Part shown: positions 9,178-44,248 of the stretch, piece by piece
Layout of the letters: the number at the start of each line of letters is the position of its first letter
Numbering within the stretch: the stretch's first letter is position 1
Source of the DNA: Rhypophila decipiens
Lineage: Eukaryota > Ascomycota > Sordariomycetes > Sordariales > Naviculisporaceae
Length of the DNA: 45,499 nt
Direction: 5' to 3'
NCBI GenBank assembly: GCA_033297075.1
Contig: MU858295.1
Location: 1-45,499 of the forward strand
Notes under the pieces: model-generated
What the model saw: the letters and a program-made list of their open reading frames with translations, nothing else
Told to the model about the DNA's origin: nothing
The model's database searches: none
Made by a program: the position numbers and the translations under genes

Positions 9178-9275
9178 CGCTCGCAACGGTCAGTACAGCT
9201 ATCTACAGCCCTGAATATAGCTAACATTGGCCCTCTAGAGCGCTGTACGCGTTGGTCCAGCGATTGCGCCGCGCC

Positions 9276-11928
9276 ATGGCGCCCCCTACCACTGAAGCCG
9301 ACGCCGCACGCGCCGCCGAATACAGCGAGTCTGACTGGAATGGATTCTCGGATTCGGACGCCGAATGCGCCAGCCTACTCGAGAGCCATCACGGCAGTCC
9401 ATCATGCCCTAGTGACCCTAGCCAACTGCCTAGCGATTCGTCGTTGAACACCTCGGATGACGACTCTGAGATCGAGGCCCCCCCCAGCGGTCACTTTGGC
9501 CCTGTCCCCTCAGTGAAGGAGCTCCAAGAGCTTGTCAACAAGTGGGCGAAGAGGAAAGGCTTCGCTGTGGTCCGCACCAATGGCCGCAGCAAGCGAGATG
9601 GCGAATACAGTCGGTACGATCTTACCTGCGATAGGTATGGCCAACCAAGACCGTCTGAGTCAGTAGGGCTCCGTACGACGGCCTCTCGCAAGTGCGGTTG
9701 CCAGTGGAAGGCGGCGGCGGAAAGGACCGCAAGGGGGTGGATGTTCGGTAACCACAGCGAGCCAAAACACCGCGTTCACAACCATGGACCCTCTCTTCAC
9801 CCCTCTGCCCACACCCAACACCGGAAAATGGACTCTGAGACCATAAGCACCGTTGCTGGTATCTCCAAGCATAATGGTATTCGTGCCAGGGAGGTGAGGT
9901 CTATCATCAAAGACCAGAACCCCGAAGCTGTATATACGAGGAAGGATATCTACAACGCGAGAGCGAAGATCCGCCTCGACGAGCTTGATGGACATACCCC
10001 AGCCGGCGCGCTAATCGAAGCCCTTGACAGGTGCGGTATCCGGTATCACGTCAAGTGGGAAGATCCGACTAAGACTCGCTTTGTTGGCGTAGTCTGGAGC
10101 TTTGAATGTAGTCTGGACCTTACAGACCAGTTCTCTGAAGTCATGAACATAGATCTGACCTACAATACTAACTGCCTCGGCTACCCTCTCTACCAAGTCA
10201 CAGGCATGACCTCTGTCAACAAGATCTTCAACTCTGTATTTGGCGTTATCGATAACGAGAAGAGGGAGGCCTTTGACTTCCTCTGTACGGCAACAAAGGA
10301 GCTCCGAGCTGAGAGGGGGATCGAGGAACCTCTTGTTGTTGTAACAGACCACTGCAAGGAGATGAAGGCGGCGTTTGCGGAGGTCTTTGACCGTACCCAA
10401 CAACAAATCTGCATCTTTCACATCCTCAAGAACGTTCACCTCAACGCCAAGATGAAGTTCAAATGCGATACCGAACCTGGCTCTGAGGATGAGGCCGTTG
10501 GCGAGGGTCTCAACGAGGTCGAGAGAGCTGCCATGGCTACATAACACCGCCAGCAAGAGGAACAACAAGAGGAACAACAAGATACGGCCAACGCCACCCC
10601 TAAGGTGTTTTCTCACCATCCTCAGGGGGTCCATGATATGTTCCAGGTCATGGTGTACGCTAGGGACGAGGCGCTATTCTTCGACGCCTAGAAGGCGTTG
10701 AAGGCGAAGTTTCTAGACCAACCGGCGGTCCTTCGGTATATCCAGAAACAGTGGATGCCCTGCCGTGAGCAGTGGGCGTACTGTCACACCAAGAACTATC
10801 AGAACTTCGGCGCCGTGGTGACCTCTCCTACAGAGACGGCTAACCTAACCGTCAAGAGCTATCTCCTTAACGGCAGAAGCAACGTATACCGGCTAATCAG
10901 CGCCATCGTTGAGATGGTTGACGAGCAGTGCAGAGTACTCGATGAGGTCGTCGCTAACGAAGCTGTACGGATACGCCGTGAGTACATCGGCCGCACCTAC
11001 CTTGGCAAACTGCCGTTGAAGATCTCATACAAGGGCCTTGAGCACATCAACCCCGAATACCTTCACGCCAAGGTAGCGATACCGACTTCTAGGCGGCGTA
11101 GCAAGCCCCTTAAGCCCTGCGATGATGACTGTACAGTTGGGTTTCAGTATGGCGTACCTTGCCGGCATAGGATCTACGAGTTGCTCCTCGAGGGAGAGAG
11201 CCTTCGCGTCAGAGACGTTCATCCGCACTGGTACCTCAAAGCACCACTTGTAAGTACCCTTGATCCTGCCTCGTTGGCTCTGCTAACCTTCATAGGACCT
11301 CCAAGATGCCTACCTTCGAATTCAGGATCCCAAGATAGCCGTGAGCAGGCGAGGAAGGCCCAAGAACAAGCCGATCGCACTACCTGCAGACCTCAGCGTA
11401 CCGCCGGCGCCGAAGCAGACCAAGCGTAAGAGAACAACCCCAGGGCTACCGAAGGGCAACGCGCCGAGGCTACAGCCAAGCATACGGCGGAGATTCTCAG
11501 CGTTCGAGATGCTGGATACAGATGAAGAGGAGGATACTATAAGGGCACAGGTGGTAGATACAGGCGCACCGGCGGCGAAGAAGTGTGGCAGACCGAAGGG
11601 GTCAAAAAACAAGCCCAAGCCTCCAGCTGACGAGATTCGGGAGCCAAGAACGACGTTGGTAATAGCCTCACGGCCGCGCAGTTCACTGTTAATCAGCGCA
11701 ACTGCTACTAGAACGGTTCCGCGGAAGCGCAAAAGGGCGGCGCCCTGCGAGGACTCACGGTCAGAGGGCGAGGCTGTGATAGCGGCTGAGCAAGCAACTG
11801 TCTCAACACCACGAGATGGCGCCTTACAGGCAACTGGAGATGTGGGGATAGCCTCAACTGCGGTTACAAGCACGGAGCAGCCGGCAGAGGTGCCTGTCAG
11901 CCCTATTTCAGCTGCTAGGGTTACTTGA
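9276..11928 (+). pseudogene. MULE transposase, interrupted by two nonsense codons
   Basis: The ATG at 9276 opens a frame that runs to 11249. It is spliced over a 46-nt intron (GTAAGT at 11250, CATAG ending 11295, GCTAACC branch) to a second exon at 11296-11928, about 870 codons in all. Domains in order: an acidic Ser-rich N-terminus; a FAR1-like zinc-binding region with Cys residues and HNH; the MULE core with a first Asp in NIDLTYNTN and a second in VVTDHCKEMKAAF; a SWIM-like Cys/His finger (PCDDDC, then GVPCRH); and AT-hooks (RRGRPKNKP, CGRPKGSKNKP). In-frame TAA at 10542-10544 and TAG at 10689-10691 cut it. Both would be Gln codons if the T were C, and the first lies at the edge of a Gln/Glu-rich run, so two C-to-T changes at CpA are the simplest explanation. 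The element is probably non-autonomous. Confidence 0.88.
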
Positions 11929-12987: not shown

Positions 12988-14239
12988 ATGGAGAGAGATA
13001 TGGATATACTCACCAGTCGATTCATTACGATGTATCAATCCTTGATCGAGAAAAAAGACTATCCAGCTCTGCTAGCACTTCTTGTCCTGTCGTTTAGTGT
13101 GGTTTTATTTGTTCTATTACGGCTTTCAAGGTCCTCAGGACCACCCAGTCTCGCCGACCCCATCCCATTTGTCTACAATACCGCTCAGTTCGTGTTCAAC
13201 AACGACAAGTTCATGAAGCGGGCAATGTAAGTGACTTGCTTTCGCTCCTTTGCCATCATTTTCTTCCCCGGGCTGTTCTAACAATACTATTTTGACTTGG
13301 TATAGGAAAAGCGCACGCAACAAAACCGCCAATATCGTTCAATTCCATTTGGGCCCCACGCGAACATATCTCATCTCAGGACCACAAAATATCCAGGCAA
13401 TATTCTCACGCAGCAGCATGAAGTACGACCAAGTGATGCTGGAAATGGCATTTCCACGGTTGTACGGGTTCACGGCCGGCGAGTTGGCACGCTTCGCAAA
13501 CGACAAGTCAGGCCGCAAGACTAAACCAATACCAGGAACCGAACATATGCCCCCCGAACAACGACTCGGGCACGCATTCGAGCACGTCCACTACGATTTC
13601 ATGAGCAGATCGCATCACTTCAAGCCCGCGGTGGAGGCTTTTTCGCGGGAGTTACATAAAGCTTTGGAATCCAAGTACCCAGCCACCGGGGAATGGTCAG
13701 AGGTGGGGGTTGTCGAGTTGTGTCGACAAGAGGTCACCACTTGTGCGATTGCTGCGCTCTTTGGGCCGAATGTGTTGGCGCTGAACCCCGGATTCGTCGA
13801 TACGTTTTGGAAGTTTGACTCGTATGCTTTTACCTTGGTTCTGGGATTCCCGGCGTCGATTAACCCACGTCCGTACAAAGCCCATGATCAGTATGTGAAT
13901 ATGATTCAGAGGTACCTGGATGCTGGGCTGGAAAGTTTTGACTGGGATGGGAGCGATGTCGATGCACAGTGGGGGCCGCTTTTTGGTGCGCGAGTTTGTC
14001 GTGAGCTGGTCAAGTGGTTGCTTGGTGCTGGTTTTAAGGGGAGGTCGGTCCGGACAAAGACTTGCTCCCTGTATCCAATCGGGTCCTCACCTAACATTTG
14101 CTCACAACAACCAACGGTTGGACAGTTACAACCAACGGCAGAGCGGGACAGCGGGACACATGCAGGCAGGCCTTTCCATTCACCCACCCTCAGGCATTCC
14201 ACGGCCGTTAAAAGGAGAGGAAATATCGCGGGGGCGTAG
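12988..14239 (+). pseudogene. Truncated cytochrome P450 (N-terminal half only)
   Basis: Exon 1 is 12988-13226 and exon 2 starts at 13306 (GTAAGT donor, TATAG acceptor), giving a 390-codon frame to 14239. Residues 25-46 form a membrane anchor. They are followed by a short Pro-containing hinge (GPPSLADPIPFVYN) and sequence typical of the N-terminal half of fungal P450s in the 7-alpha-hydroxylase-like group (HLGPTRTYLISGPQNIQAIF; FEHVHYDFMSRSHHFKPAVE). After about residue 322 (near 14040) the sequence turns into Ser/Thr/Gln/Arg-rich junk. The I-helix, ExxR and haem-binding FxxGxxxCxG are all missing, where a complete P450 has about 500 residues. It cannot bind haem. Its broken end is about 300 bp from the dehydrogenase start, so a deletion probably joined P450 remains to that gene's promoter. 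Confidence 0.8.
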
Positions 14240-14344: not shown

Positions 14345-15483
14345 ATGCCTTCTTTCTCGACATTTTGGACACACTTTTTCCCGCCAAAGCCCAAGTTTAC
14401 CGATCGTGACGTACCCGACCTCACAGGCAAGGTCTACCTCGTCACTGGCGCCAACACTGGCATCGGTAAAGAGGTGGCGCGTATACTCTACTCAAAGAAC
14501 GCCAAGGTAAGAAGAGACTTGTATCTTTTCTTTCTCAATCCACTCTTCCCAAACTAAGCTCACACACCAAAAACAAAAAGGTCTACGTGGCAGCCCGCTC
14601 AGAGGAGAAAGCCCAAGCAGCAATCGAGGAAATCCGCAAGTCCAGCAGTTCCTCAACAGGGACTCTCAAGTTCCTGCACCTCGACCTGAGCGACCTGACC
14701 AAGGTCAAGGCCGCTGCCCAAGCCTTTCTGTCTCAAGAACAAAAGCTCCACGTTCTCTTCAACAATGCCGGCGTCATGGTCTCCCCAGCCGAGCCACCGG
14801 CCAAGTCAGCCCAAGGTTTCGAGCTCGGTCTGGGAGTGAACTGCATCGGCACCTTTCTATTTACTCAACTCCTAACACCAACTCTCATCTCAACTGCCAA
14901 GTCAGAATCCCCTAATTCCGTCCGGGTCATCTGGTTATCTTCTTTTGGGCTGGAGCTTTTCGGTCAAGCTGGGGTAGGTCTGTCAACTGAGAACCTAGAC
15001 TACCATACGCCCGTGGACGCTACCGAGCGTTATGGGCAGAGTAAAGTCGGGGCGTGGGCTCTAGGCGTCGAGTATGCCAAGCGTCATCGGGCAGATAGTA
15101 TCGTCAGTGTGCCTGTTAATCCGGGGAACTTGCAGACTGAGCTGCCGAGGGACCAAAAGGCCATGGTCAAGCTTGTTGCCAAGTTGCTTTGTTACCCTGC
15201 TGTTAATGGTGCTTATACCGAGCTGTTTGCTGCCTTCTCGGATGAGGTCGCGATTGAAAAGGCTGATTGGTCCAAGACTTGGGGTAGGTTTCTCTTTTCT
15301 TTTGTGTATGGAATCTCTGATACAGTGCTGACATCATTTGTACCACTAGTTGCGCCCTTTGGACGTGTGTATCCCCTTCGGTCTGACTTGGTTCAAGCTA
15401 CCATGGCAGAGACTGAAGGCGGGACCGGAGGCACGTCCAAGTTCTGGGACTGGGTTGAGCAGCAGGTCAAGGCGTATCTTTGA
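14345..15483 (+). CDS. Short-chain dehydrogenase/reductase (332 aa)
   Basis: Exons 14345-14506, 14581-15283 and 15350-15483. The first intron has GTAAGA and AAAAAG borders. The second (66 nt, GTAGGT to CCACTAG with a GTGCTGAC branch) is a multiple of three and free of stops, so it looks coding. Removing it gives KTWVAPFGRVYPLRSDL, the usual family sequence. Landmarks of classical SDRs are TGANTGIG (34-41, NAD(P)-binding), NNAG (115-118), the catalytic Ser in WLSSFG (174/175) and Y205-x3-K209 (YGQSK). The closest described groups are retinol-dehydrogenase-like and WWOX-like SDRs, which reduce carbonyls or oxidise alcohols with NAD(P)H. The substrate is unknown. It could act with the neighbouring methyltransferase and UstYa genes, though SDRs are too common for position alone to prove it. 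Confidence 0.88.
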
Positions 15484-15980
15484 TGATTGTGATGGCTCGA
15501 TACCACCTGTATGGTCTTTGGGGGGCGGAAATGGGGACAGGGAATGGAAATGGGGGCCGAAAATGAAAGTGCGGAAGGTGGAAGAAGAAAACGAAACACA
15601 GTGCAAGAGAAGGCTGTCTCGAAAATAGTCTAAGTGGGAACCTCGGTACAGTACCACCTAGCGAGCGGGGCATAAACGGTTAGCTGAGGAGTTCGCCAAG
15701 GACCCAGTAACCCCTAATGCACGCTAAAGTACAGGGGTTAACGCTTGTTTGGACACCATGTGAGTCGGGGTATATATCAGGTTGGTGGGACACGGCTCGT
15801 TGGTTCTTGCTCAATTTCCAAATTTCCATTGACCGATCAGCAGTCTTTTGCATCTTCAATGTTCAGTGTGGTTGCAACCCCGGCTCGTTGGTGCCCGCCT
15901 CGCTCCCTCTACCAGACATATTCACACCCTGGACTGGCTGATGTGATTCCAGGTTACACAAACTCAGATCCGTACATCGT
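15484..15980. other. Convergent 3' region between SDR and methyltransferase
   Basis: About 500 bp between two stop codons on opposite strands. It is GC-rich at first and of mixed composition later. I see no gene or clear repeat. Confidence 0.4.
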
Positions 15981-17060
15981 CTACTTTTTGATCATTATCT
16001 CGCCGTGCATCATGGCCAGTACGCCATCCTCCATGCCGATCCATGCCTCAAAGTCTTTTTCCATCTCGTCAAAGTCATCCTCTGTAAGACCGGACTTGAG
16101 GCCAGCTTGACGCACTGGGCCGTGAAGCGCATCTCGAATAATGCCCTGGGCTGGAGATTAAAGTCATGTTATCAGTACACGCATTACCAAACGGTGGGCG
16201 AAATGCAGCCATATCAACGTACCGTAGATTTTCTTGAGTTCCGGGTCCGTGTAGGACCAGGTGCCGTAACTCGGCGTGATCTGGCTCCGTTTGGCTCCGG
16301 CGCGGAGTGCCCAAGACACAAGCTGCCGCCCCGCAGATTTCGTCCCGCCATGCCCTACCAGCATGCTACCGGCAAATCTGGACGAAAAAGGAAAAGTCAA
16401 TAATCTACAAAGACATGACATTTGGGGCCTGTTAACAGGCTTACATACCCATGAAACTTTACCAATCCGGGAAGCTGTGGCCAGCGGACTTCTGTCTCCC
16501 AGTCCCCTTCCCGAGCGGCAACTACCCCGCCGGGCTTGGTCATTCTCAGCATCTCACGCAGTGCATCCCACGGCGCGTTGACGTGAGTCAGGAGCTATTC
16601 ATTGGACTTGGTCAGTTGCATAATGTAGTCATGCTTTGGGTTTCTGAGCTGAACCAACCTGATGACAATGGACAATGTCGAAAGTGTTGTCCTCATACGG
16701 TAGCTTGTGGACTTCTCCCTGCTGAAAGGACATCATCTCTATAACGCCCATTTCCTCGGCGACGGCTTTGCATCGTGGGATGGTGGCCGGATTCAGGTCA
16801 AGAGCTGTCACGTGGCCCTTGGTCCCGATGATTTGAGCAAAGGTTGCCGAGATGGATCCGGAACCTGCGCCGACATCGAGGATGGTTATGGCGGGATTCG
16901 TTTTCTTCATGGACTCGATAACCGGTACGAGATAGGCGGCGCTGTTGTAGGCGGTGCGCCATTCCATGTGCTTGTAGACATTCTTGTTCGCTGTGGCCCA
17001 GTCCACGAGAGGGACGGCATCGGGATGGAGATGGGTCTCTTTTGCTTGATGTTCCGTCAT
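15981..17060 (-). CDS. SAM-dependent methyltransferase, UbiE/COQ5-like fold (290 aa)
   Basis: Four exons on the complement: 17060-16659, 16594-16449, 16377-16223 and 16150-15981. All borders are GT-AG with matching phases (0, 2, 1), and the first intron has a CAACTGACC branch. Residues 59-70 (TILDVGAGSGSI) are the glycine-rich SAM-binding motif I; ALDLNP at about 86-91 is motif II with the ribose-binding Asp; NTFDIVHCHQ (125-134) is motif III/IV. The second exon encodes LREMLRMTKPGGVVAAREGD, the motif V/VI region. The closest families are ubiquinone/menaquinone methyltransferase-like enzymes, which in moulds usually methylate secondary metabolites. Its start is about 1.3 kb from that of the putative RiPP precursor, on the same strand. 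It is a plausible peptide or small-molecule methylase for that cluster; its acceptor atom is unknown. Confidence 0.88.
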
Positions 17061-18040
17061 TTTGCAAGGTGCGTGATGGCTTCAATGTTGAAGATGTTGG
17101 AAGTTTCGGTGTAAGGAGAGGTGAGCTCTAGCTCACAGTGACGACTGCTCAATTCTTTCTAGTACCTGTTTACGCGGAGAGTCGGACAGTCGGCGACACC
17201 TTGCTGCGGGGACAGAATAACAAGCCCCGCTGTTACCGCCTGCCTTGACACTGTTTGTCCCGGGTGTTGAAACCCGGCTCGCCTAGTCTTGAACAAAGAC
17301 CTGCCAATTTCACAGCGAATAATGTTGTGTAACTACAACAATCACAGTGCGTTTGGTGCTCGCACAGTCTGAGGTGCATGATCAACAAGTCCTATGCGCC
17401 AACCGCAACAGCTCAGAATCATGATAAAATGGGAAAGAAAATTGATATCACCATCGATCGATTTGCACCACGGTAATTAACCTCATAGCCCTCTTGGTTG
17501 ACGTTCATGGTGCGTGCAAGTTTGGATCTCTGAGTGCCAGTCTTAACAGAGGACGGGAGCCTGAGAACGAATTGCGCTTCAGCGATCAGAGATACATGGA
17601 CGAGTTGGCGGGCATAAGGCCAACTATAAATACGTGTTGGTTCTCCATGTGCATTTATCCTTACTCGGGCGTCTCGGAAGATAAGAAGAGTGGACCAATC
17701 ACAAACCTATCACTACATAGAAGTACATTTATATATTACGCTCTGAGCAAGCTGTATCTAGGTAGGTATAATATTGACTCCTGGCGGTGATTAGAAGCCC
17801 CGAAGTGATAACGGACCATCTCCTGATTTCAGGGCCTCTAGTAAGCAGAACAGAAAGACGATTTTATCCATCACAGCACCTCACCTCAGAAGGGTAAGCG
17901 GGATTTTCAAGCCAATGCCACCGAAAGTTAGGTTAAAGCAGGTATGGAATTAAGTACAATCTCCTCCGCCCTCTGCTGTAGTACATAGCAAGCAGTTGAT
18001 CATGTCCGGGGCCTAGCTCTACCTGATCAAATCCGTCCGA
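17061..18040. promoter_or_regulatory. Non-coding region between methyltransferase start and precursor stop
   Basis: About 980 bp that must contain the methyltransferase promoter and the precursor 3' flank. A small perfect palindrome (ATCGATCGAT, about 17453-17462) is present. No supportable gene, RNA or repeat is seen; the plus-strand frame at 17494-17790 has no coding character. Confidence 0.35.
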
Positions 18041-18355
18041 CTAGACAGTGGCAGCCTCATCTTCACTGCTCGAGTATACCCACGCAGTGCGAGTAGCGTA
18101 CTCATCAACGAGGTTGTCCTTGACATTCCGGGCCTCTACCTTATCCTCCTTTACATAAAACCACCCAGAGCGAGTAGCGGCCCCGTCAACGATGTTGCCA
18201 CCGGCGGTCTCAACATCTCGGACCTTCAACTAGAGTACAGATCAGCATGGGTTCGATGGGAGGCTAGCTTGATCATATGATAATCTCACCTCGACAGGAA
18301 TTGCTCCGGCGTGGAGTATCATATAGACGATGGCAAGTGCTCCGGTGAACTTCAT
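18041..18355 (-). CDS. Putative secreted RiPP precursor with two core repeats (84 aa)
   Basis: Exon 1 (18355-18290) encodes a 22-residue signal-peptide-like leader (MKFTGALAIVYMILHAGAIP). A 60-nt intron (GTGAG to TCTAG, GCTGATC branch) separates it at phase 0 from exon 2 (18229-18041). The mature part has two related units. Residues 25-54 contain NIVDGAATR then SGWFYV then KED; residues 55-79 contain NLVDEYATR then TAWVYS then SSED. Trp, Tyr and the preceding ATR recur exactly 27 residues apart (W45/W72, Y47/Y74, R42/R69), and the DNA of the two units is also alike. A secreted peptide with short aromatic repeats, flanked by three UstYa-family genes, matches dikaritin precursors (ustiloxin, phomopsin, asperipin-2a). 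Unlike those, it has no KR or RR pair; the likely cleavage point is the single Arg of ATR. It could instead be a small effector or hydrophobin-unrelated secreted protein. Confidence 0.8.
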
Positions 18356-19722
18356 GGTTGATTTAGGCTGAGGAGGTGTTTGTAATGCAGTTTTTGAACT
18401 GTTTGTTTGACTGGAAACTGTCTGGCATTGAAAGAATTTTGCACAACGAAGTGGTTCCCACGTCCTGGTTATATACTATTTCTCTTTGGACAAACACATG
18501 CTTTGGCCCCGCGGATGATATGCCCAAACCTCGGCCGTGGATACATGTACGTCAATGTATTCGCGGCATCCCCAAAATTGACTCTCGTCGCCTTTGAAGA
18601 ACAGAAGCAAGAGAATACCTTGAAAGTCATTATGGAGACGAATATCTCACAGCTGTTCCAGATTGGATCTCGTCAACCCTCACATGCCCCTACCACAACA
18701 CTCTCACCGCCCCCCTAGCTCAACTAATCCCAGCTCCCGCTTGGTTCCACCATCACGATGGCAATAACACCTTCACTTCTCAAGGTCCTTCGAGTGGAGA
18801 GAATGACTTCGAGGATGACAAAAGATCAGGAATTTTGATAGCCATATTGCGGCCTTGGATCAAGTGGATGGTTCGCATAAGTCTGCCTAACTCATAAATG
18901 GAAGGTTATGTTATCCACTGCCCCCAAAACATAAGATTGGGACACATGGCCATAAATACCATGCATCCAAATTGGTGTTATAGTCTGTAGCAGCCTTTAA
19001 CTATCAAAATAGATAGAATTCCCTGCATGAGAAGTTTGAGGACATGTAATCGGACCGTTGGAAAGGTTGCCATTCAGAGAGTTCAGCATAGATACGAACA
19101 TCACGTAACACGAATTTTGAATAGCAAATGTCACCGTCTTAGTGTGGACGGGTCTAAGCCCGCATTCAACCCATCTGTCCAATTACAAGGACTGCCGTTG
19201 TTCATTTATCCAGGGCCAACCGCCAAATTGATTGACGTTATCACTCAGGGCAATTCGAAGTTGCCCAGGACGAGGCTCTAGTACCTAATCAAATGCCTAG
19301 ACTCGACCAATATATACGAAGGACCTGTTAATTAAATATTCATATATAGGTGGATAGCTAAAGCTGACACATCTGTCCTATATCAACAATGTCACGAACC
19401 ACTGCACGGTACTTTGGTGGCAATATAAAACGAAGTAGCTTCAGGGCTGAAATGTCAGCAGCATGCCAATCTTTAATGACGCCCGAGACATATTTCAGAA
19501 AAAGCTTTCACCGGTTGGAAATGGCCAGACCTAGACACAGTAACATACATAGTAGTAGTGCTTGTGTTCAGGGTCTCTCGAGTCCCCACAGTGACGACAG
19601 AGAGTCGTCGGTCTTGTTCTATCTCCCGCTCATTATTTTGGCTGCAACTCTGAGAAACCAGTTCGCCAAACCACCTAGCAAGTCAACTTAGTTCATTTAA
19701 CCTCATTGCTGTGATAGCTACC
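18356..19722. promoter_or_regulatory. Divergent region between precursor and first UstYa gene (about 1.4 kb)
   Basis: The precursor is read leftwards from 18355 and the UstYa gene rightwards from 19723, so this should hold both promoters and could allow co-regulation. It is AT-rich from about 18880 to 19400. Small plus-strand frames such as 19389-19691 show no recognisable protein features. I did not find a clear shared binding-site repeat by eye. Confidence 0.4.
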
Positions 19723-20700
19723 ATGGGTCTTTCTACTCCATTCTTCCACGGCGGCCGCAGTGCTAGTATTGAAGACTCGGAACCGTTCCTGGCCAACGAC
19801 GACTCAGCAATAAAGCCTGGAAACGGGAATCTGCACCGTGGTAGAAGATTGACATACTGCCTAGGCCTTTTGTCCTTCACTCTTGCTATCACCTGTCTTG
19901 GTCTCATCATAAAGCTCAACCATCAAAGTGAGCTTGCATGCTTCGGGGATAACCCAGTATACTGTGAGAGATCTGAATCCTCCCGGATCACTTCCTGCAG
20001 ATGAAGAGGTAAAACTAACGCTTGAAGCAGCACCGGCGCAACACGTTGTAAAATACAAGAATGTTGTCTTCACCAGCGGGTTTGGAGGCGAGAGAACAGC
20101 ATATCAGGGGCCTCCGACCCCGGAGAGAGACGGCTTGTGGGATGACCTGTATGGCTGTAAGTTGACCCAAACACCCAGAAACACAACGCGGAAAGCATTA
20201 TTCTCACAAAACATAAAGTCGGCGTTAGTAAAATTCCAATGTCATCGGCTGCCAAACTCGTCAACAAGACCGTGCCCATTCCTGGTCAGCCCGGACAGTA
20301 TGTCGTTGAGCTGAACGTCTTTCATCAGATACATTGCCTAGTAAGTCTACCGGTCTGTCCAGCCAACTCAACTACAAGTCAATAATCTGACAGTACTGGT
20401 CACAAGAATATGCTTCGAAAGAGACTCTACAGCAAGGAAGATTACCCACCAGACCATGAACTGATGGGCATTGAGCACCTCGAGCATTGTTATGATGCCC
20501 TGAGACAGAGCTTGATGTGTTCGGCTGACATTACTCCGCTCCCTTGGCAATGGGTCGAAAAAGAGCAGCAAGCAAAAGAGGTCGCCCGGGTAGCGCATAC
20601 TTGTCGTGATTTTGAGGCCGTGCGGACTTGGGGAAAGGAGAATGCTCTTGTGCACTTTGACAGGAAGATATATGTTACTGATCCGCTAAGGGCTTCGTAG
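19723..20700 (+). CDS. UstYa/DUF3328-family oxidase A (about 258 aa)
   Basis: Exons 19723-19927, 20001-20156, 20219-20340 and 20407-20700. The second and third introns have GTAAGT donors; the first has GTGAGC, and its acceptor is the least certain. Residues 43-65 form a single N-terminal membrane anchor after a short cytosolic tail, so the catalytic part faces the secretory lumen. The body has the family order: [18 protein letters not shown], then a GFGVSKIP segment, [13 protein letters not shown] and HLEHC. The two HxxHC motifs (156-160 and 185-189) are the signature of UstYa proteins, which oxidatively cross-link peptides in ustiloxin, asperipin-2a and related RiPP pathways. It is transcribed away from the putative precursor. 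Family assignment is firm; involvement in the proposed pathway is inferred from position. Confidence 0.88.
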
Positions 20701-20869
20701 GTGTTTCTCTGTTGTAATGCACCGGAAGCAACGCGGAATTGGAGAAATAGCAGGATGTCTTTATCATTGCATCTAATAATATTGAGCTGGCAGTGATATA
20801 TAGCAGTCGTGGAAGCTACTCCTGCTTAGGGGTTCCCGCTTTCTACCCTCAATATTTTATTCTCGTGTC

Positions 20870-21840
20870 CTAGAAGTACCCATCACCCTCGAAAAACTGT
20901 GCATCCTGCGGCATCTTCAAGTCGTGCCATCTATGCCCCAAATCCTGCACCGCGTTCTCCTGTACCCAGCCCAGCAGAGCATCAAAGTTGCGACACTTCT
21001 TGGTCAGGTTAAAGTCTGCCAACGGTTCGGCAAATGGTCTGGTTGGCTGGTCCTTGAGATCATAATGAACCCAGTTATGGGTAATGATGTCGACGTCCGC
21101 GTGGCACATGAGGTTCTGAAGAAGCATGTGGATGCAGTGGTTCTTGTGATCGATGTGCTCCCGCGGCTTGGACGTTCCATTCAACCTTGCATCCATACCG
21201 TAGTAGTAGTCGAAGTGTATCTCCTTGCGGAGCTCGTTGAGGCAGTGGATTTGGTGGAAGACGTCGACTTGAGCGATGTAAGCGTCTGGGCCACGATCCC
21301 AACTCAAGGGTGCCTTGACGCAAAGATCTGGGTTCTTTCCGGAATTTGACACAGATGACCGGTCAACTGTGATGATTTCGTATCCTTTGGCAGTGAGCCG
21401 AGTCCAAGCATTGTCGACTTCTGTAGATGGATCGAGGCGGAAGATTGACGTGTTGTCTTGAATGCGACCGTTCAGCTGCTCCCAATGTAAGGAGAGGTCG
21501 ACTTTGTCAAATAAAGGGGCTGGATACAAATTAGCCAATGGCCAGAGAAGGAAGGACACAGGAACAGTTCATTTCGGAACATACAAGAAGACGATGTGAG
21601 CTTCATAGCTTCTCTTTCGCCGCTTAAATTCCCCCTGTCTCCCGGCTGGACAGTGGCAGAGGGAGGTGATACAAGTATCACAACAATAACCAGCAACAGC
21701 AAGTTGAGCCCAACCGAAATCAACAAGAGACAAGGTGAAGTCAAAAGTCTTGCTGACGCTGTCGTGATTCTCCGAGTGGGCATTGAATCAACTTCTAGAA
21801 GATGCTTTTCCTCATCACGGCCCCCTTCTAGGGTTGCCAT
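20870..21840 (-). CDS. UstYa/DUF3328-family oxidase B (about 301 aa)
   Basis: Two exons on the complement: 21840-21585 and 21519-20870 (donor GTATGT, acceptor ATCCAG, phase 1). A hydrophobic anchor lies at about residues 30-58 (LLLISVGLNLLLLVIVVILV). The luminal part contains [20 protein letters not shown] and HIDHKNHCIHMLLQNLMCHA, giving HxxHC motifs at 174-178 and 210-214. It ends with FDALLGWVQENAV, the usual family tail. The gap between the two motifs is 36 residues, against 29 (156 to 185) and 35 (150 to 185) in its two neighbours, and it keeps only the anchor-proximal intron. It is therefore the most divergent of the three and may perform a different cyclisation. It is convergent with copy A (3' ends 169 bp apart) and divergent from copy C. 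Confidence 0.88.
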
Positions 21841-22581
21841 AATTCGTACGCGGCGGAACTCAGAATGCGCTAAGAATTTTTTTAGAAGACAAAAGACAAA
21901 CGCCAGTGAAGCACACTACTAAGGAGCACTGTGCTACATTGAACATGAAATCTGGAAGAAGCTTTCTGATGCTGAGTATTACATGTTGTGGCAAGTCGTT
22001 TAAAGCGGCGAGTGATAGTAACCGCCCGGGCTTGAAACTCGACGCCTGTTTCTAGCTGTTGCAACCACTAATTACTGGTCAGCAAACAGATATATTGGCT
22101 AATTACAAATCATGTCCACCTCCATTACAATGTCAAATTCTGGTAGTTTTGCAAAATCTCTCAAGGCTGCGCTGGCTGTTACAAATCATATTAAATCAAT
22201 TTAATCTTAAGACGACTTTGAAGGACCTGCTGCAGTCATTAAGCCGTGTTTCGTATTCGGCCCTTTATGACCTGATTCAAGTTAGCTGCGCCGCAAGTCA
22301 GCAGTCATCACCAGCCTGCATAAGCAGGTAAATTCACCTTCATCGGGCATATGGAAACTTCATCGGCTAGCTGCGAGGCATTGTTGGGTAATCTGAATAT
22401 CGTCACCTACGTGCCTGACCTCCAGGAGTCCAGAGGACGGGGATATTTCGAATAACTCTTTATTGGGAATAACGCTTCTGCTTCTAACCTATCTATTAAA
22501 AAAGTTCAAAACACAATACTCGAGGCCCACGCCCTCACAACCTTCCCACCTTTCAGGCCCTTCCTTTCAACAATACTAGCT
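21841..22581. promoter_or_regulatory. Divergent promoter region between UstYa copies B and C
   Basis: About 740 bp separating two start codons on opposite strands. It is AT-rich, with a C/A-rich tract just before 22582. No gene or clear binding-site cluster is recognised. Confidence 0.4.
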
Positions 22582-23568
22582 ATGTCTGGCTATTCAGAGG
22601 TCAAAGAATCCGATGAATTCTCAAGCGAAGACCCCTTTTTGACATCACCCTCACGGGAGCGTCCAAGATGGAAATTCGTCTTTCGGTTGCTCCTTCAGTC
22701 CACAATCGTGTGTTCTCTTTGCCTGGCGTCGTTCTTCATAGGAGCTGGGAACGCCGACAGACCTAATGAAGTGGCATGTGTCGACACTGCTTGGGGTTAG
22801 TAGGAAAAAAATCCTTCGCTTCAAGTTGTACTTTAGCAGCTTGATTACTGACTGCCATCTGTATGACAGACAAGGTCCGCGAGGGAATCTCGTTCAAGAT
22901 GCATGAGTTCAATCCAAGATTCGGGGGCCGTCCATCCCCATATATGGGTCATCCCAACCCGGGTGTCGACAAGCTTTGGTATCACCTTGCTGCCTGTAAG
23001 TCACAAATCCACGAGCTCTATCAGTTTGAGGAGAAATGCTCACTTATTGCGACAGTGCGCAACTTTGGAGTTCCAAAGGAGGTCCTGGTCACCATTAACA
23101 GAACCCGTGACGCGGTGAAGCTCCCTGGGAATGACGGTTACATGGCGGGTATGGAGGCCTTTCACCAGTTACATTGCCTAGTGAGTACCACAGTGATGTC
23201 CGATCAGCCCCGATTTGAATACTATAACAGACCACCAAAACTGACCGCATAGCGAATCCCAGAACTATATCCGCATGTACACATACATGGACCACTACGA
23301 AAAGATAGACACAGACATCAAAGCAGAGACCATGGAAGAGCGAAGGGAGCATGCAGACCACTGCGTCGAGACCCTTCGCCAGCGTCTGATGTGTAACCCC
23401 GATATGAACATCTACACCTACCACTGGATGGACGGGTACGATATGCCGGCGGGAAATCTGTTCTCAAGGCATAGATGCATCGATTGGGATCGTTTCGATG
23501 ATTGGGCGGGGGACAATGCGCTGCATTATCCGGCTCCCACTTCTCGGCCTGAGGGCTTCGAGGTGTGA
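22582..23568 (+). CDS. UstYa/DUF3328-family oxidase C (256 aa)
   Basis: Exons 22582-22795, 22870-22995, 23056-23180 and 23263-23568. Phases 1, 1 and 0 match copy A, and the last intron interrupts the same point (HCL|N) in both. The last acceptor is CCCAG at 23258-23262 rather than CATAG at 23248-23252, because only the former keeps the frame. A membrane anchor lies at about 33-55 after an acidic, Ser-rich cytosolic tail. The luminal part holds FKMHEFNPRFGGRPSPYMGH, a LRNFGVPKEV segment, and HxxHC motifs HQLHC (150-154) and HADHC (185-189), followed by ETLRQRLMCNPDMNIYTYHW. Shared intron positions suggest that A and C arose by duplication. Role as for copy A: oxidative tailoring of a secreted peptide is likely but inferred. 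Confidence 0.88.
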
Positions 23569-31829: not shown

Positions 31830-33219
31830 TCAGCTAGAATCCTCATCATGACCAGGCCACATGATCTCGCGTCTCCGAACAGCCCTCAAACATCGCGCAG
31901 CAATAACAATCCAAGCAACAAACAAGCACGCCGTCATGACCGAACTGAACCACAACAACCCCTCGCTGCCAAAGACTTTCCCGACCCGAACAGTAGACAA
32001 CACAAACCCAACATTAGGGAATATAAAACTCCACCAACTCAAGTGAAACCTCCGATCCGGCATGCCAGCCACGACAGCCCCTACCGCGCTCACAAAGAAC
32101 CAGAAACTTAGTCCCCATAAGAAGACAGCCGACGTGAGGGCCACCAGACGGACTCCCGCGGCTACCATCTCTACCGGTATCGTATCGGGCCCTGCTGAAG
32201 CTGAAGCCAACCCCATTACCCAACTGACTTCCCTCCCCTGACTCGTCAACCCTCTCATAATCCCCTCGACCTGTTCCGCAAGACTGAGCAACGCAGCAGC
32301 CGTGAAACTGGGCGGCCCAACAGCAATAAACATACCCGGCCGTTGAACAGGCAACCCAAACGCCATAAGTCGACTCAAATACGTTGCGTAAAAGAACACA
32401 GAGACTAACATCCCGAGTCCCTGCGCAGCCAGTCCAGCAGCCACGATGCCCAGCGCCTGTCTGGCTGCCCTTTCCGCCCCCACATGAAACTCCCCGCCAA
32501 CTGGAACGGTTGTAGTCGTGTTGTTGATGTAACCCAAGAGCTGAAACTTGGCAGCACCACCAGCCAACGTGCCCGCAAGCATGACCGGAAAGATGGGCAA
32601 GATCCACGCCGGCGTCATGGCACTAACCTGTAACCTCCTCTCCTCCTTGACCGTAAATAAGAGGTGATACCCCACCACCGAGAAAAGAAACGTGACGCCC
32701 AAATAGATCCAAAACATGACTTTCAAGAATCCCGCCATGCCCATGTTTCCGTTTCCTCCTTCACCCTTGACATCAGCTGGCGGGAAGAATAACAGCGTGT
32801 ACTCGCCCGCGTTGGACAAGATGGCTGCGATGGAGAGAAAGAAGGTGGGTATGAATAGTGCTTCTGTCGGTCGGGTGAAGGCTCGACGGAAAGCATTCTT
32901 GTAGAGGATAAAGCGCAGGGTTATGGCGGCTGTTATGAATAAGAAGAAGATGAGGTCTAGGAGGTAGATTATTAGCCCGACGGTGGAGAGGCCGGGGAAT
33001 CGGTGGGGTGTTAGTGCTAGGAGGAGGGATATTCCCGAGGTTGACATCCTATTTTTGGTAGGTTAGTAAGGGCTTGAAGGGGAAGAGCCGGAGAAGGAAA
33101 GGCGGTCATGTCCATTGCTCAAGATCTGCACGACAAGATGACGATGAGTGAGATGAGCCATGGATTTGTTTACAAATAGGTACGCAGGTAAGTGAAAAAC
33201 GCTAAAGGGCACGACGACT

Positions 33220-38640: not shown

Positions 38641-41494
38641 ATGGACCATTCTAGACTCACCACCACACGAGCCAAGGGCAAGCCCGCGAGCGACATCCGG
38701 ATTCCATGTCGATTTCACGCGCGAGGATCTTGCTCCAAGGGTGGCTCCTGCCCGTTTGCACATGGAGACTCGAACGGTGACGACTCGACCAACGCTGCAT
38801 CGTCCAATCCCGGCCATCCACTACCTGCTCCTCCACCCTCGTCGACTATTAGTTGCCGGTTCTTTTCGGCAGGTACATGCGCGAAAGGACCTTCCTGTCC
38901 GTTTTTGCACGCGGATGCTGCCCGGATTCCAGGCCCAAAGGGACCAACCATTTCCCAACATAATCTATCGTCGCTCTTGGATTCGCGTTCTCATATACCA
39001 TGTCAGTTTTTTGCACGGGGCAGCTGCAGGAACGGAGCTGCTTGTCCTTTCCAGCACGGGGGCACCAGCATGGGGAATGGAGACAATAGCGAGACATCGC
39101 CCCACGATGCGAATCAAGTATGTTTTTGTATCGAGCATCATACCATTAGAGTGTGTTCCTGATCCCTCGGGTTGATCGCCGAATAAATGCTAGGGCTAGT
39201 TAGCGAGACGGACTGACCCCGAATGTATCGCTAATTAATTACAGGATGACAACACTCCGGACGACTGGATTCGCGACATCGGCGGCGCTATCGTGGCGTT
39301 TGGCGACGGCGCGGCCGTCTCCAAGCTCTCGCTCCCGTCCGACTTTTCCGCGGTCCGTCTGAGTAACTTGCCGTCCGACAGCACGCCGACCTCAGTCGCC
39401 GCCCTCCTTCTCAAGACCATCGGGGACGACGTCGTCCGAGAGGAGCATGTAGTTCGTGTCTTTACAGTCCCAGGCGGAACCACCACCTGCAGCGCGGATA
39501 TCAAGATGGAAGATCCCATGTTTGCTACGACTGTTTGCGGCAAGCTGCGGTCCCAAGCCCGCTTGGAGGCAACCCCGATCCCTCCACCCATGCAAGGTGG
39601 CACATCGAATATCCATCGAGTAGACTGCAGGAAATTGCATTGCTCGTGGCATCGACCCACCCGGACGGCATGGCTGAACTTTGGAACAGAGGGGATTGCC
39701 CACAAGGTTCATGATAAGTTCAATGCGGGTGTGTACAAGATCCTCGGTAGTTCGGTCACGGCCGGTGCTCCGACCGGCGGAGAGGGCAGTGGATGGCGCA
39801 ACCCGCTGGCCTGGAGCGTCATGTTAACCGGTCTTCCCGGGAACGCCAAGAAGCAGGATGTCTTGCAGCCCATCCCCGATTACCACAGACCACGACATAT
39901 CGAGCTCGGGGATCCCAGCTACAAGATTGACCCAGTTGTAGCAAATACGATCGTGGAGTCGATGTTCTCGCAGTTCGGGCCGCTGGAATCCTGGAGGCTG
40001 GCGTCGGGTTCACAGGGAAAAAGAGTCAAAGCCCAAGCAAGATTTGTCGACGAGTCGCACGCGAGAGAGGCGGCGGCTGCTCTGAACAATAAATCTCTGC
40101 CGTTCGGCAAGACGACCAGGTTGACTGTGCAGCTCGTGACATCAACCAAGTTCAAAATCTGGGCTCAAACATACGACGTGGTGCGGGACCAGATCGAGGC
40201 TCAAAAGTCAGGATGGGAAAAGATGCATATTCAGTTCATTGTATACCCTCCCGCCAATGGATATCGTGTGCTGAAGCTCGAGGGGCAAGATAGCAAGCTG
40301 ATAGCCGCAGCAAAAGACACACTCGGACACATTGTTGGCGGCCAGGTGGTCGTCAAAGATGGCAAAACCCTCTGGAATTCGGCATTTAGGAGAAATACCA
40401 GCGACGAGTTGCAAAGGATCAAGCAAGTGGAGCAAGAATGTCGAGTTGTCATCCTCCGAGACAAGTTCAAGTCCCAGCTACGAGTGTTTGGATCGGAGCA
40501 GAGCTGCCAAAAGGCCACCAAGAGGCTGGCCACTCTCGTCGGGGAATTGGAACAAGTCAAAGATTCGGCCGATGGTCAGATAATCGAGCTTGACGCCGAA
40601 GAGTTCCAATGGGCTTGCCGTGGCGGGTTCGGGACGATGGTGTCGAATTTGGGGAGCAACAAAGCGATGTTCGACATTGTGTCGAGGCCAGCACGGATCA
40701 TCATCATGGGGTCGAGGGATGACTACCACACGGCGACTACGATGGTCAGGAGCAGGCAAGACACCACAAACACCCAAGGAAGTAGACCCACCAACCAAGA
40801 GACGCAGGATTGTTCAGTCTGCTGGACGGAAGCCGAAGACGCGATCCGAACCACGTGTGATCACGTCTATTGCCTGGGCTGCTTCATCGACTTGTGCCAA
40901 GCAGCAGGCTCATCGACGGCCAACGAGACTTTGATCTCGTGCGTCGGTGACCAGGCACGCTGCGGGAAAGTGCTGACCCTTGGTGAACTCCAAAATCACC
41001 TCTCTTCGGCCATCTTTGAGGACCTTCTGGCATCTTCTGTCTCATGCTACGTCGGACGTCGGCCCGACGTGTTCAGATATTGCCCGACGCCCGATTGTGG
41101 GCGTATTTATCGCTCTTCGGTTGCTGTTGACGAGAACGGCCGTGGTGGTAGCAAGGTCAAGACATTCACCTGTCCCCAATGCCTCATTCCAACGTGCACC
41201 GCCTGCCACGCACCCCATCCGGGAATGACGTGCGCGGAGCACAAGGACGTCGCATTGGATGGCGGAAAGGAGGCGCTAGAGCTGCTGAGGAAGAAACTGG
41301 GAATCAAAGACTGCCCAAAGTGCAAGACGGCCATGGAGAAGGTGGACGGGTGCAATCATATGACGTGCGGTGGATGCGGGACGCATATTTGCTGGGTGTG
41401 CATGGAGCATTTCGCCACGTCCAGGGAGTGTTATGATCATTTGAACAGGCAGCATGGGGGGGCTTTTGCTGTTGGGGACGATGGTCTGTTTTAA
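38641..41494 (+). CDS. CCCH zinc finger / RRM / RBR E3 ubiquitin ligase (about 908 aa)
   Basis: Exons 38641-39117 and 39245-41494 (GTATGT donor, TTACAG acceptor, phase 0). The N-terminus has three C-x7-C-x5-C-x3-H fingers (C23-H41, C72-H90, C121-H139), a type that binds single-stranded RNA. The middle has RRM-like segments (FSAVRLSNLPSDSTPTSVAA; VMLTGLPGNAKKQ, then FGPLESWRLASGSQGKRVKA). The C-terminus is a RING-IBR-RING module. RING1 begins at about C682 (CSVCWTEAED, CDHVYCLGCF), the IBR contains FTCPQCLIPTCTACHAPHPG, and RING2 begins at about C849 (CPKCKTAMEKVDGCNHMTC), with the expected catalytic Cys at about 862. RBR ligases form a thioester with ubiquitin before transfer. Together this suggests an RNA-guided or RNA-regulated ubiquitin ligase. 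The stop is 42 bp from that of the convergent DUF3176 gene. Confidence 0.9.
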
Positions 41495-41536: not shown

Positions 41537-44248
41537 CTACACCTCCTTAAACCGCCATCCTCCCTCGGTCCTATCCAGCCTCACCTTCATCTTCTTGCTC
41601 AACTCTTCAATTTCCCCAATCCGTTCGACAACACCATTGACCGCTGTCCCAGACTCCACAGCCCCTATATCAACCGTACTACTCGTAGTCGTACCACCAA
41701 CCGCCGCCCCCCGAGTGGCCGCCATCGACCCGCCATGCTGCTGAGCGGTGTCCTTGGTCTCGACACCATACAAAACCAGCGGCAAAATCCCATTCTTATA
41801 CCCCTGCCTCATGACACTCTGCCCTCCGCCCTCTTGAAGCCGCCCAAACATGCCCCGTCCTGACAGTATCGCACCAACCAAGAAGCCAAGCGTCACAAGC
41901 GCCAAAACCCCAGGATATAAAATCCAAAGCCACCGCACATCAACACAAGTATCCTGCCCCCAAACCTCCCCTTTTTCCTGCTCCACATATTGCCTCCCCG
42001 CCCGGCGATTAACCAACGTCATCCGATTAGCTACACTCTCAAAAATCTTTTCCAGACTCTTCGTGCTGAGATTCCCGTTCTGATAGATGGATTGCAGATG
42101 GGCAGGTCCATCTATGGAATTCCCTTGGGTAGGGAAGGTCACCCAGGGGTTAAAACCCGCCCATTGGGCGTTGAATATATTTATCAGGCCGCCTTGGATC
42201 GAGTTCATTGTGGGCGTGCAGACCTGGTATATACACTGATCTCTGAGACCATATTCGGGGAGGTAGTACTTGTCACGGTCTTCGTGGAATTCGAAAAGGG
42301 ATGAATCGTCCGGTTTGAGAATGTCGGGGTATGTCCACCCGCTGTAATGGTATTTCAGGAAGGAGTCGGAGTCGGAAAAGGTGTAGTTTATTTTGCGGAG
42401 GGAAGACTTCTCGGTGGAGTTGAGGCAGGATATATCGAGGATAGACCAGCATGTTGACTGGTAGGTTGCTTTTGGCCCGGAACCCCAGTCACTGCTTTCG
42501 GCGAGAACATTTTCGCGCATCAGGCCGTTTGTTACGGTAGAGTTGTATTTCCGCACGCAGGGGGAGAGGGAACATGTTGCTGCCGAGAATTTGTTGCGCA
42601 CCCAGGCGTCGGGGCTAAAGTAGGTTGGTGTTGTGCCGGGCATGGCGTCTTTGGGACCGTCGGACCCGAGGAGGAGCATTATCTCGGTAGAGGGCTTGGA
42701 GTTTGGCCTGGAGCGGAGGGCTGCGAATTGCAGGACTGGGGGCTGAGTTAGGGCTGCGGAGAGGTTAGCTGTGCTGAGGGGATCGAAGTATTCTTCGGGT
42801 TCGATCTTGGGTGTGTCGTTTGTTGAGCTGGGAATTGGGTCCGGGGGCGTGTCGTTGTCGCCGAATGTGGGACCGAAGTTGTCGGGGGGCGTGTCGTTGC
42901 TGCCGCTGTTGGAAGTGTCGCCGCCGTTGTCATTGTTGTTGCCAAATGTTGGACCAAAGTCGCCAGTTGGCGTGTCGCTACTGCTGCCACTGCTGCCGGT
43001 ATCACTATCAGTGCCGCCGCCGCCGCCAAAGGTTGGCCCAAAGTCGGACTGGCCTTGTCTTTTGCCAAAAGTCGGTCCAAACGAACCGCCGCCGCCGCCG
43101 CCCGAGTCCGATTCGGCATCATATGGAGGATCAGAGCTGGGGAACTCGGCCTGATATACAAGGGTGGCGTTTTTGTGTGCAGGGAGAGTAAAGTCTCCAT
43201 ATTCCCCTGCATAAAGAGCCGTGTAGTTGCTCTCAGGGACATCAACCACCTTGACCTGCGAGGTCAGATCGGTGCATTTTGAGCACCAGCCGGCCGAGAC
43301 ATACGGGACGGAAAAGGTACAGTTTCCGGTCGGGCAAAACGGCTTGATGGCTTCCAGCAGGGCAGCCTCGTAGTCGGGGTCGACACTCTTGGGGCTGTTG
43401 TAGATGCCGCTCATGATGGCGTCCTGCATCTCGCCCGAGATGGTCCAAGACCCGAGGACATCGGTGTCGGTTGCAGAGAGGCCGCCACCAGGGAATCCGC
43501 CGTCGACGAAGCGATTGCGCGTGACAGTCGCCGACAGACTCTCGCCGTTGGTTTGTGTCGCCGGGACCGCGCAAGGGTAGAAGCGGATGATTTGCTGGCC
43601 AAAGGGGTCCACGATGGTAGCCAAGACAATGGCAAGGGCGGCTACCGAGGGAAGAAAGGTGCGGCATCGCAACTTCCAGAGCAAGTTGAGAGAGCCCCAT
43701 GGTCCACGGGTGGCATTGTCGTAGGCGGCCAGGTGGTAGAGAGGGCGCGTCTGTCCGCTCGAGAACCAGCCCCATTTGAGCTGTCCAAGGCCCTCGGCGA
43801 GGATAAAGACCATGCAGGCTTTGATGACGGTAAAGTAGATGGACACCACCGTGTTGATCTGGAGGTGGTATGGCCAGTTGGGGAGCGGTTTGTCTTGGTA
43901 GGGATGGATGGTGCCGACGACTGCGCCAAACATGCCGAGGACGAGGACGCATGTCAGCATCTCGGGCCACCAGACACGCAGGGTGGACGGGAACGTCCTG
44001 GGAGATGGCTCGAGCAGTTTCTCGGTCTGTGTCTGTTGAGTTTGGGTCAAGGTCGGATCATTTACCGTGCTGGAGCTCGACGACGGATCATTGGGGTTGG
44101 GCTGGTTCCCGTCGTCCATGGGCGAGACCATGAGCGAGTCGAAGGAGGCATTTCGCGCCGGACGTTGGAACTGCCGAGTTTCCATTGGGCTCGGGGAGGC
44201 CTGAGGCACTTGGCCATGAAGAGCTGGGTAATCCCGCTCACTTGCCAT
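41537..44248 (-). CDS. DUF3176-family membrane protein with FGPTFG repeats (903 aa)
   Basis: The start is taken at the ATG at 44248 (MASERDYPALHGQ); the open frame extends 21 codons upstream through a hydrophobic stretch. After a Ser/Pro-rich cytosolic tail come membrane segments (PEMLTCVLVLGMFGAVVGTI; STVVSIYFTVIKACMVFILA). The family core follows: RGPWGSLNLLWKLRCRTFLP, VDPFGQQIIRFYPC and CPTGNCTFSVPYVSAGWCSK. A large Cys- and sequon-rich outer domain leads to a last helix (VLALVTLGFLVGAILSG) and a short tail. DUF3176 proteins are widespread in moulds and functionally uncharacterised; the topology suggests a plasma-membrane protein. The outer domain carries an Asp/Ser/Gly-rich insertion with four FGPTFG motifs, not part of the family core. 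Confidence 0.82.
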   Translation of the reverse strand: MASERDYPALHGQVPQASPSPMETRQFQRPARNASFDSLMVSPMDDGNQPNPNDPSSSSSTVNDPTLTQTQQTQTEKLLEPSPRTFPSTLRVWWPEMLTCVLVLGMFGAVVGTIHPYQDKPLPNWPYHLQINTVVSIYFTVIKACMVFILAEGLGQLKWGWFSSGQTRPLYHLAAYDNATRGPWGSLNLLWKLRCRTFLPSVAALAIVLATIVDPFGQQIIRFYPCAVPATQTNGESLSATVTRNRFVDGGFPGGGLSATDTDVLGSWTISGEMQDAIMSGIYNSPKSVDPDYEAALLEAIKPFCPTGNCTFSVPYVSAGWCSKCTDLTSQVKVVDVPESNYTALYAGEYGDFTLPAHKNATLVYQAEFPSSDPPYDAESDSGGGGGGSFGPTFGKRQGQSDFGPTFGGGGGTDSDTGSSGSSSDTPTGDFGPTFGNNNDNGGDTSNSGSNDTPPDNFGPTFGDNDTPPDPIPSSTNDTPKIEPEEYFDPLSTANLSAALTQPPVLQFAALRSRPNSKPSTEIMLLLGSDGPKDAMPGTTPTYFSPDAWVRNKFSAATCSLSPCVRKYNSTVTNGLMRENVLAESSDWGSGPKATYQSTCWSILDISCLNSTEKSSLRKINYTFSDSDSFLKYHYSGWTYPDILKPDDSSLFEFHEDRDKYYLPEYGLRDQCIYQVCTPTMNSIQGGLINIFNAQWAGFNPWVTFPTQGNSIDGPAHLQSIYQNGNLSTKSLEKIFESVANRMTLVNRRAGRQYVEQEKGEVWGQDTCVDVRWLWILYPGVLALVTLGFLVGAILSGRGMFGRLQEGGGQSVMRQGYKNGILPLVLYGVETKDTAQQHGGSMAATRGAAVGGTTTSSTVDIGAVESGTAVNGVVERIGEIEELSKKMKVRLDRTEGGWRFKEV
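42861..43080 (-). repeat. Four FGPTFG-encoding repeats in the DUF3176 gene
   Basis: FGPTFG is encoded at 43064-43080, 43025-43041, 42942-42958 and 42861-42877, each preceded by S, D or N and separated by Gly/Ser/Asp/Thr-rich linkers. The DNA copies differ at synonymous positions, so the peptide motif has been kept while the bases drifted. Confidence 0.8.

Follow-up and report, generated by a model that had tools for sequence, protein, structure and literature searches.

The analysed stretch, called the window below, comprises 45,499 nucleotides of Rhypophila decipiens, a dung fungus of the Sordariales (PMC12734299). It is the entire contig MU858295.1 of assembly GCA_033297075.1 (C251 in our numbering; genome of 45.74 Mb in 408 contigs), and the view ends at the contig ends. 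Six genes span positions 14345 to 23568. From left to right, these are a short-chain dehydrogenase (SDR, +), a methyltransferase (MT, -), a putative precursor of a ribosomally synthesized and post-translationally modified peptide (RiPP, -) and three UstYa/DUF3328 oxidases, U1 (+), U2 (-) and U3 (+). A preliminary description, made from the sequence without database searches, had proposed this gene set as a dikaritin-like RiPP cluster, and all of its genes are present at these coordinates, the five enzyme genes with Pfam matches. Among the titles and abstracts listed by full-text literature searches, none describes this cluster.

The three oxidases pass the Pfam UstYa cut-off widely, and with E-values of 1e-45 or better, chance is ruled out as the source of the matches. 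The HxxHC motifs noted before occur twice in each of them. U1 (19723-20700, + strand, 260 residues) is built of exons 19723-19963, 20031-20156, 20219-20340 and 20407-20700, with the motifs HQIHC and HLEHC (PF11807, 1.7e-52); its final splice model was set after comparison with homologues and agrees with them. U2 (21840-20870, - strand, 301 residues) has two exons, 21840-21585 and 21519-20870, with HQIHC and HKNHC (PF11807, 7.5e-46 for the large exon). No solved structure was found for its family (best E 0.44). U3 (22582-23568, + strand, 256 residues) consists of exons 22582-22795, 22870-22995, 23056-23180 and 23263-23568, with HQLHC and HADHC (PF11807, 2.1e-50). At the left end of the locus are the SDR (14345-15483, + strand, 332 residues; adh_short, 2.6e-24) and the MT, an S-adenosylmethionine (SAM)-dependent, UbiE-like enzyme (17060-15981, - strand, 290 residues; Methyltransf_31, 4.1e-24).

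The putative precursor peptide

The putative precursor (18355-18041, - strand) is located 1.4 kb from U1. It counts 84 residues, encoded by exons 18355-18290 and 18229-18041 with one 60-bp intron, and this model matches the public R. decipiens protein QBC37DRAFT_380080 letter for letter. The protein starts with MKFTGALAIVYMILHAGAIPVE, followed by LKVR-DVETAGGNIVDGAATR-SGWFYV-KEDKVEAR-NVKDNLVDEYATR-TAWVYS-SSEDEAATV. Judged by hydropathy only, the N-terminus resembles a signal peptide, with a mean Kyte-Doolittle value of 1.67 over residues 3-18 and an AxA-like end (AGA).

Two imperfect modules, NIVDGAATRSGWFY and NLVDEYATRTAWVY, make up the repeat region; of 14 positions surrounding the core, 8 are identical in the two. 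When the same residues are shuffled 1000 times, their repeat score of 46 is never reached (highest score 36). By self-similarity, however, the precursor takes only fourth place when the 607 short stop-to-stop segments found in the window are ranked with low-complexity ones set aside. The duplicated aromatic motifs pointed out in the preliminary description are thus real but modest. Core 1, SGWFYV (residues 43-48; 18152..18169, - strand), stands between ATR and KED, and core 2, TAWVYS (residues 70-75; 18071..18088, - strand), between ATR and SSED. In both cores, Tyr comes two positions after Trp, and ED follows the core. For the cores of the ustiloxin precursor UstA, ED and KR are the described flanks (PMC6514808). 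The only four arginines of the precursor, residues 26, 42, 56 and 69, are found exactly at the module borders (KVR, ATR, EAR and ATR), which suggests a release by cleavage at single arginines.

A protein search with the precursor gave two matches, namely the protein itself and P0002 (V8F06_006005), deposited as R. decipiens; one strain held under this name is probably R. myriaspora (PMC12734299). Across the repeat region, 46 of 52 residues are identical in these two proteins. Core 1 reads SGWYYI in P0002, with F/Y and V/I varying, core 2 is unchanged, and the W-x-Y pattern persists in each core of the two records. The same search returned no match from Rhypophila sp. PSN 637. Within its own genome, the precursor has no detected paralogue, one search returning just its own two exons, and a W-x-Y motif scan of 21 loci (including L031) and the window matched the window alone.

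UstY genes and precursors elsewhere

Homologues of U1 and U2 are widespread among fungi. Those of U1, at 53-69% identity, were found in Camillea, Drechmeria, Apiospora, Paramyrothecium, Fusarium fujikuroi, Penicilliopsis, Cladorrhinum, Tricladium and Aspergillus terreus, and those of U2, at 55-70%, in Paramyrothecium, Camillea, Drechmeria, a Xylariales species, Apiospora, Penicilliopsis, Metarhizium and A. terreus. The homologues of any one of the three oxidases show about 24-35% identity to the other two window proteins. A Venturia inaequalis protein, P0126, is 57% identical to U1 over 267 residues; annotated at 528 residues, it has two UstY parts, the second of them U1-like, and represents either a fused annotation of two neighbours or a true fusion. 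The U1 alignment was also compared with viral contigs (14 pattern stretches) and with bacterial and archaeal contigs (22 stretches), and no stretch was confirmed, as expected for a fungal gene.

The preliminary description had called for a synteny check in related fungi. In five assemblies from outside Rhypophila, homologues of U1 and of U2 were found on a common contig. Sharing was deduced from equal contig sizes in the protein records and does not imply adjacency on megabase contigs. The contigs are those of Camillea tinctor (1,115,567 bp), Paramyrothecium foliicola (507,297 bp), Penicilliopsis zonata (17,174 bp), an ENA contig (32,862 bp) and Tricladium varicosporioides (588,761 bp). The last case is weak, since the 46% identity of its U2 match is close to that of paralogues inside the R. 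decipiens genome (40-43%, contig C282). Because the Penicilliopsis and ENA contigs are short, the two homologues must lie within 17 and 33 kb of each other, respectively. Both genes also share a contig in Rhypophila sp. PSN 637 (159,683 bp), and in V8F06 the precursor, MT and U1 are all on one 228,238-bp contig. These sequence comparisons suggest that U1 and U2 are a conserved pair, while U3 is perhaps a member of the pathway by its position.

A search of the R. decipiens genome with PF11807 yielded 67 matches at exon level, spread over 30 contigs, and a dikaritin-like locus is therefore expected in it. Of the other 29 contigs, nine were read around their UstYa matches (20 loci, 196,503 bases). 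This survey covers the best 60 scores and is a description rather than a rate. Repeat frames with dibasic sites were seen near UstYa matches on six contigs. One of them, on C53 (AAGVVTWADVSKR; C53:10811-11131, L012 912-1232, - strand), is complete and of the classic Kex2 type, with a signal-like start and four cores, at 2.3 kb from UstYa. The others carry GPPPPSWKR on C59 (L021 6739-7062, 1.3 kb from UstYa), PLYSLTALVGPPQKR on C71 (L015 7059-7679, 1.5 kb), LLWNGLTWRYRASPERR on C3 (L025 5990-6283, 1.2 kb), EYNDNNAVEFKKR on C326 (L017 3232-3621, 1.6 kb) and GDDSNFINFLDKR on C156 (L020 2649-2870, 2.1 kb), the last two with two to three copies in a single frame. W-x-Y is present in the C3 precursor too (TWRY). 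On C282, C155 and C167, no such frame was among the best 60 scores. The closest paralogues of U1 outside the window are those on C53 (44%) and C156 (43%), with the KR-containing repeat frames about 2.3 and 2.1 kb away. The genome thus seems rich in dikaritin-like loci, and the window locus has the layout of these ordinary cousins, minus the dibasic sites.

Two further arrangements were observed in this genome. On C59, a short frame near a UstYa match (L022 2206-2325, - strand) has three Tyr-bearing repeats of the DLDDLIVYPEP type and no dibasic site, and is possibly a second precursor of unusual kind. On C58, a tyrosinase match and a UstYa match (57781-57885 and 62267-62790) are about 4.4 kb apart, which is the arrangement of ustiloxin and phomopsin.

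Proposed biosynthesis and its alternatives

Three UstYa genes that look intact, a secreted-looking repeat protein 1.4 kb from the first of them, an apparently conserved U1/U2 pair and U1 paralogues that lie beside Kex2-type precursors together support a UstY-modified RiPP. The favoured interpretation, to which we give a probability of roughly 0.6, is a UstY-type RiPP locus with the precursor, U1 and U2 as its core, perhaps joined by U3. The precursor would enter the secretory path by its putative signal peptide, and the UstY oxidases, membrane-anchored and copper-dependent, would act as a U1/U2 pair on the aromatic W-x-Y of each repeat. For UstY (DUF3328) proteins, a dicopper site has been described, as well as a cross-link from the Tyr oxygen to the beta carbon of Phe in asperipin-2a (PMC12186524). 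By analogy with these known enzymes, a Trp-Tyr bond in each core is the leading guess; in its simplest form, the phenol oxygen of Tyr would be joined to Trp at its beta carbon (in core 1, alternatively to that of Phe) with the loss of 2 H per bond. Release may occur at the single arginines bordering the modules instead of by dibasic Kex2 cleavage, and the released SGWFYV- and TAWVYS-containing peptides would be trimmed further.

The computed [M+H]+ values are 758.351 (linear) and 756.335 (one cross-link) for SGWFYV, and 726.346 and 724.330, respectively, for TAWVYS. For the arginine-bordered peptides, they are 1713.860 and 1711.844 (SGWFYVKEDKVEAR) and 1615.712 and 1613.697 (TAWVYSSSEDEAATV). 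One methyl group would add 14.016.

Several observations weigh against this interpretation. KR, KK, RK and RR are all absent across the 84 residues of the precursor, a correction to the preliminary description, and there are only two repeats, while the precursors near other UstY genes of this genome mostly have several KR-bordered copies. Beyond Rhypophila, the precursor was not found in the protein search, which covers annotated proteins only; this part of the synteny check yielded a single other Rhypophila record. That record, P0002, departs as annotated from the window precursor at both ends: after ALAIVYM, its N-terminus follows another reading frame of the window DNA, and its C-terminus extends past the position of the window stop. 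In PSN 637 (records P0125 and P0003), the U1 homologue has HQMHY instead of the first HxxHC and the U2 homologue misses about nine residues before HQIHC, changes that reflect either decay or annotation error. Finally, DUF3328 proteins are described to serve non-RiPP pathways as well, both polyketide and non-ribosomal ones (PMC12048977). The dikaritin-like proposal is thus partly supported: a UstY-type RiPP locus is likely, with no dibasic Kex2 site and no more than two repeats in its precursor.

The preliminary description had also joined all six genes in one pathway. In such a pathway, the MT would act by methylation, for example of the N-terminus, and the SDR would reduce an oxidised intermediate. 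The genes follow one another within 9 kb, and no foreign gene was recognised among them; methyltransferases act in the biosynthesis of ustiloxin and phomopsin (PMC6514808). The second-best solved relative of the MT, LahSB (SAM-dependent methyltransferase in the PDB), shows a likeness at family level only. In V8F06, a 96% MT homologue is still linked to the precursor and U1, which is to be expected in so close a relative. However, an MT paralogue (47%) and an SDR paralogue (64%) stand head to head on contig C176, where no UstYa match is present, and apart from C251, none of the five MT contigs and none of the 21 SDR contigs (SDR at E up to 1e-10) has a UstYa match. In a joint protein search, 353 matches passed, and the best 120 of them (27 UstYa proteins and 93 methyltransferases) include no methyltransferase on the five non-Rhypophila U1/U2 contigs. 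In Tricladium, Mollisia and Apodospora, the MT homologue and the U1/U2-like gene are on contigs of different size. Being paired on C176 and apart from UstY elsewhere, MT and SDR are treated here as a separate two-gene module, which may have been recruited and may or may not tailor the product. Their membership in the pathway is doubtful and a six-gene pathway unlikely; the part of the earlier claim that stands is the likely association of the precursor with the UstY genes. On C176, the SDR match (locus L031, C176:22000-31500) is in two pieces, the second with one stop, which may be due to introns.

It could also be assumed that the locus is a relict of a Kex2-type system, whose precursor has lost most repeats together with its dibasic sites and which yields no product or only traces. 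The two remaining repeats, the transposase gene 2.4 kb upstream of the SDR, the open frame nearby, the diverging ends of the V8F06 copy and the altered motifs of PSN 637 would fit such a decay. Nevertheless, the window copy of the locus retains intact every splice site, two HxxHC motifs per UstY, a signal-like N-terminus and W-x-Y in both cores, and the repeat region is largely kept between the two Rhypophila records, making a relict quite improbable. Slightly more doubtful still is the use of another substrate by the UstY enzymes, either a small molecule or a precursor encoded elsewhere, with the small protein being an unrelated secreted antimicrobial or signalling peptide. The non-RiPP roles of UstY proteins mentioned above are in line with it, as is the wide distribution of U1/U2 homologues compared with a precursor found in Rhypophila only. 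Against it, the largest frame of the 45-kb contig encodes 941 residues (DUF3176), and a non-ribosomal peptide synthetase or polyketide synthase would need a longer one; moreover, the precursor is about as far from UstYa as the other precursors of this genome (1.2-2.3 kb), and its cores contain Trp and Tyr.

Going beyond the locus itself, we tentatively raise the rather unlikely possibility that U1/U2 form a widespread UstY cassette, making a Trp-x-Tyr ring in tiny two-core precursors that are released at single arginines without Kex2.

Related systems and surroundings of the locus

DUF3328 and its two HxxHC motifs have been described as class-defining (PMC12048977). Among the characters of dikaritins (ust-RiPS), the locus has three DUF3328 genes with both motifs and tandem core repeats in two copies; Kex2 sites bordering the cores are missing, and so is the tyrosinase found in the ustiloxin and phomopsin clusters, though not in that of asperipin-2a. 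Consistent with the preliminary description, none of the 60 tyrosinase matches of the genome is on C251. The locus therefore qualifies by the DUF3328 definition (PMC12048977) and fails the repeat-plus-Kex2 definition (PMC7329392). It is filed here as dikaritin-like.

With the ustiloxin B cluster of Aspergillus flavus (ust-RiPS), it shares a repeat precursor, here with a putative signal peptide, near a UstY pair, ED after the core and a methyltransferase nearby. However, UstA is described with 16 cores bearing KR, along with a tyrosinase (PMC6514808), compared with two cores, no KR and no tyrosinase on the contig here. The phomopsin cluster, the founding dikaritin, likewise combines several DUF3328 genes with a methyltransferase, but its precursor has eight KR-bordered repeats and the cluster encodes the tyrosinase PhomQ (PMC6514808). 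The phomopsin core is of the YVIP type. Asperipin-2a resembles the present locus in its aromatic-rich core, its DUF3328 enzyme acting without tyrosinase and its added reductase, and its link between Tyr and Phe (PMC12186524) is the model for the chemistry proposed above. It differs by a single UstY (AprY) and the core FYYTGY, against three UstY genes and W-x-Y cores. The Kex2-processed repeat proteins (KEPs) beside DUF3328 genes resemble the secreted-looking precursor as repeat proteins near UstY with Tyr in the repeat, but at least three repeats of at least eight residues between KR, KK, RK or RR are required for them (PMC7329392), unlike the arrangement found here.

For W-x-Y, the proposed ring would join residues i and i+2, as is known from the bacterial biarylitides and triceptides. 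Those rings are made by cytochrome P450 or radical-SAM enzymes and not by UstY (PMC12186524).

What makes the locus noteworthy is that a precursor with two cores and free of dibasic sites lies next to a UstY pair that seems conserved. Published genome-mining filters ask for at least three repeats between dibasic sites (PMC7329392) or for repeats split by kexin sites (PMC9632046), and a precursor with two cores and no dibasic site would therefore be missed by both. If the U1/U2 cassette does exist, a class of fungal RiPPs would have escaped repeat-plus-dibasic mining. Many UstY loci without a precursor have been reported, for example in lichens (PMC12048977). If U1 and U2 work on precursors of this type, such loci could be searched anew with a looser filter and the U1/U2 pair as query. 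Being small, the locus could also serve to study how UstY enzymes pick their core.

Upstream of the cluster, a Mutator-like transposase is located at 9225-11429, with a MULE domain (5.8e-25) in its first frame. An open frame of 334 residues (13235-14239) ends just before the SDR; it looks like a P450 remnant, but as it has no Pfam or PDB match, it is not claimed as one. Downstream, a SLAC1-family anion transporter at 31830-33062, 8 kb from the locus and probably unrelated to it, qualifies the earlier statement that no transporter is visible in the window. Further along the contig are an IBR-type E3 ligase-like protein with RNA-binding-like parts (39239-41494) and the DUF3176 membrane protein (41537-44362).

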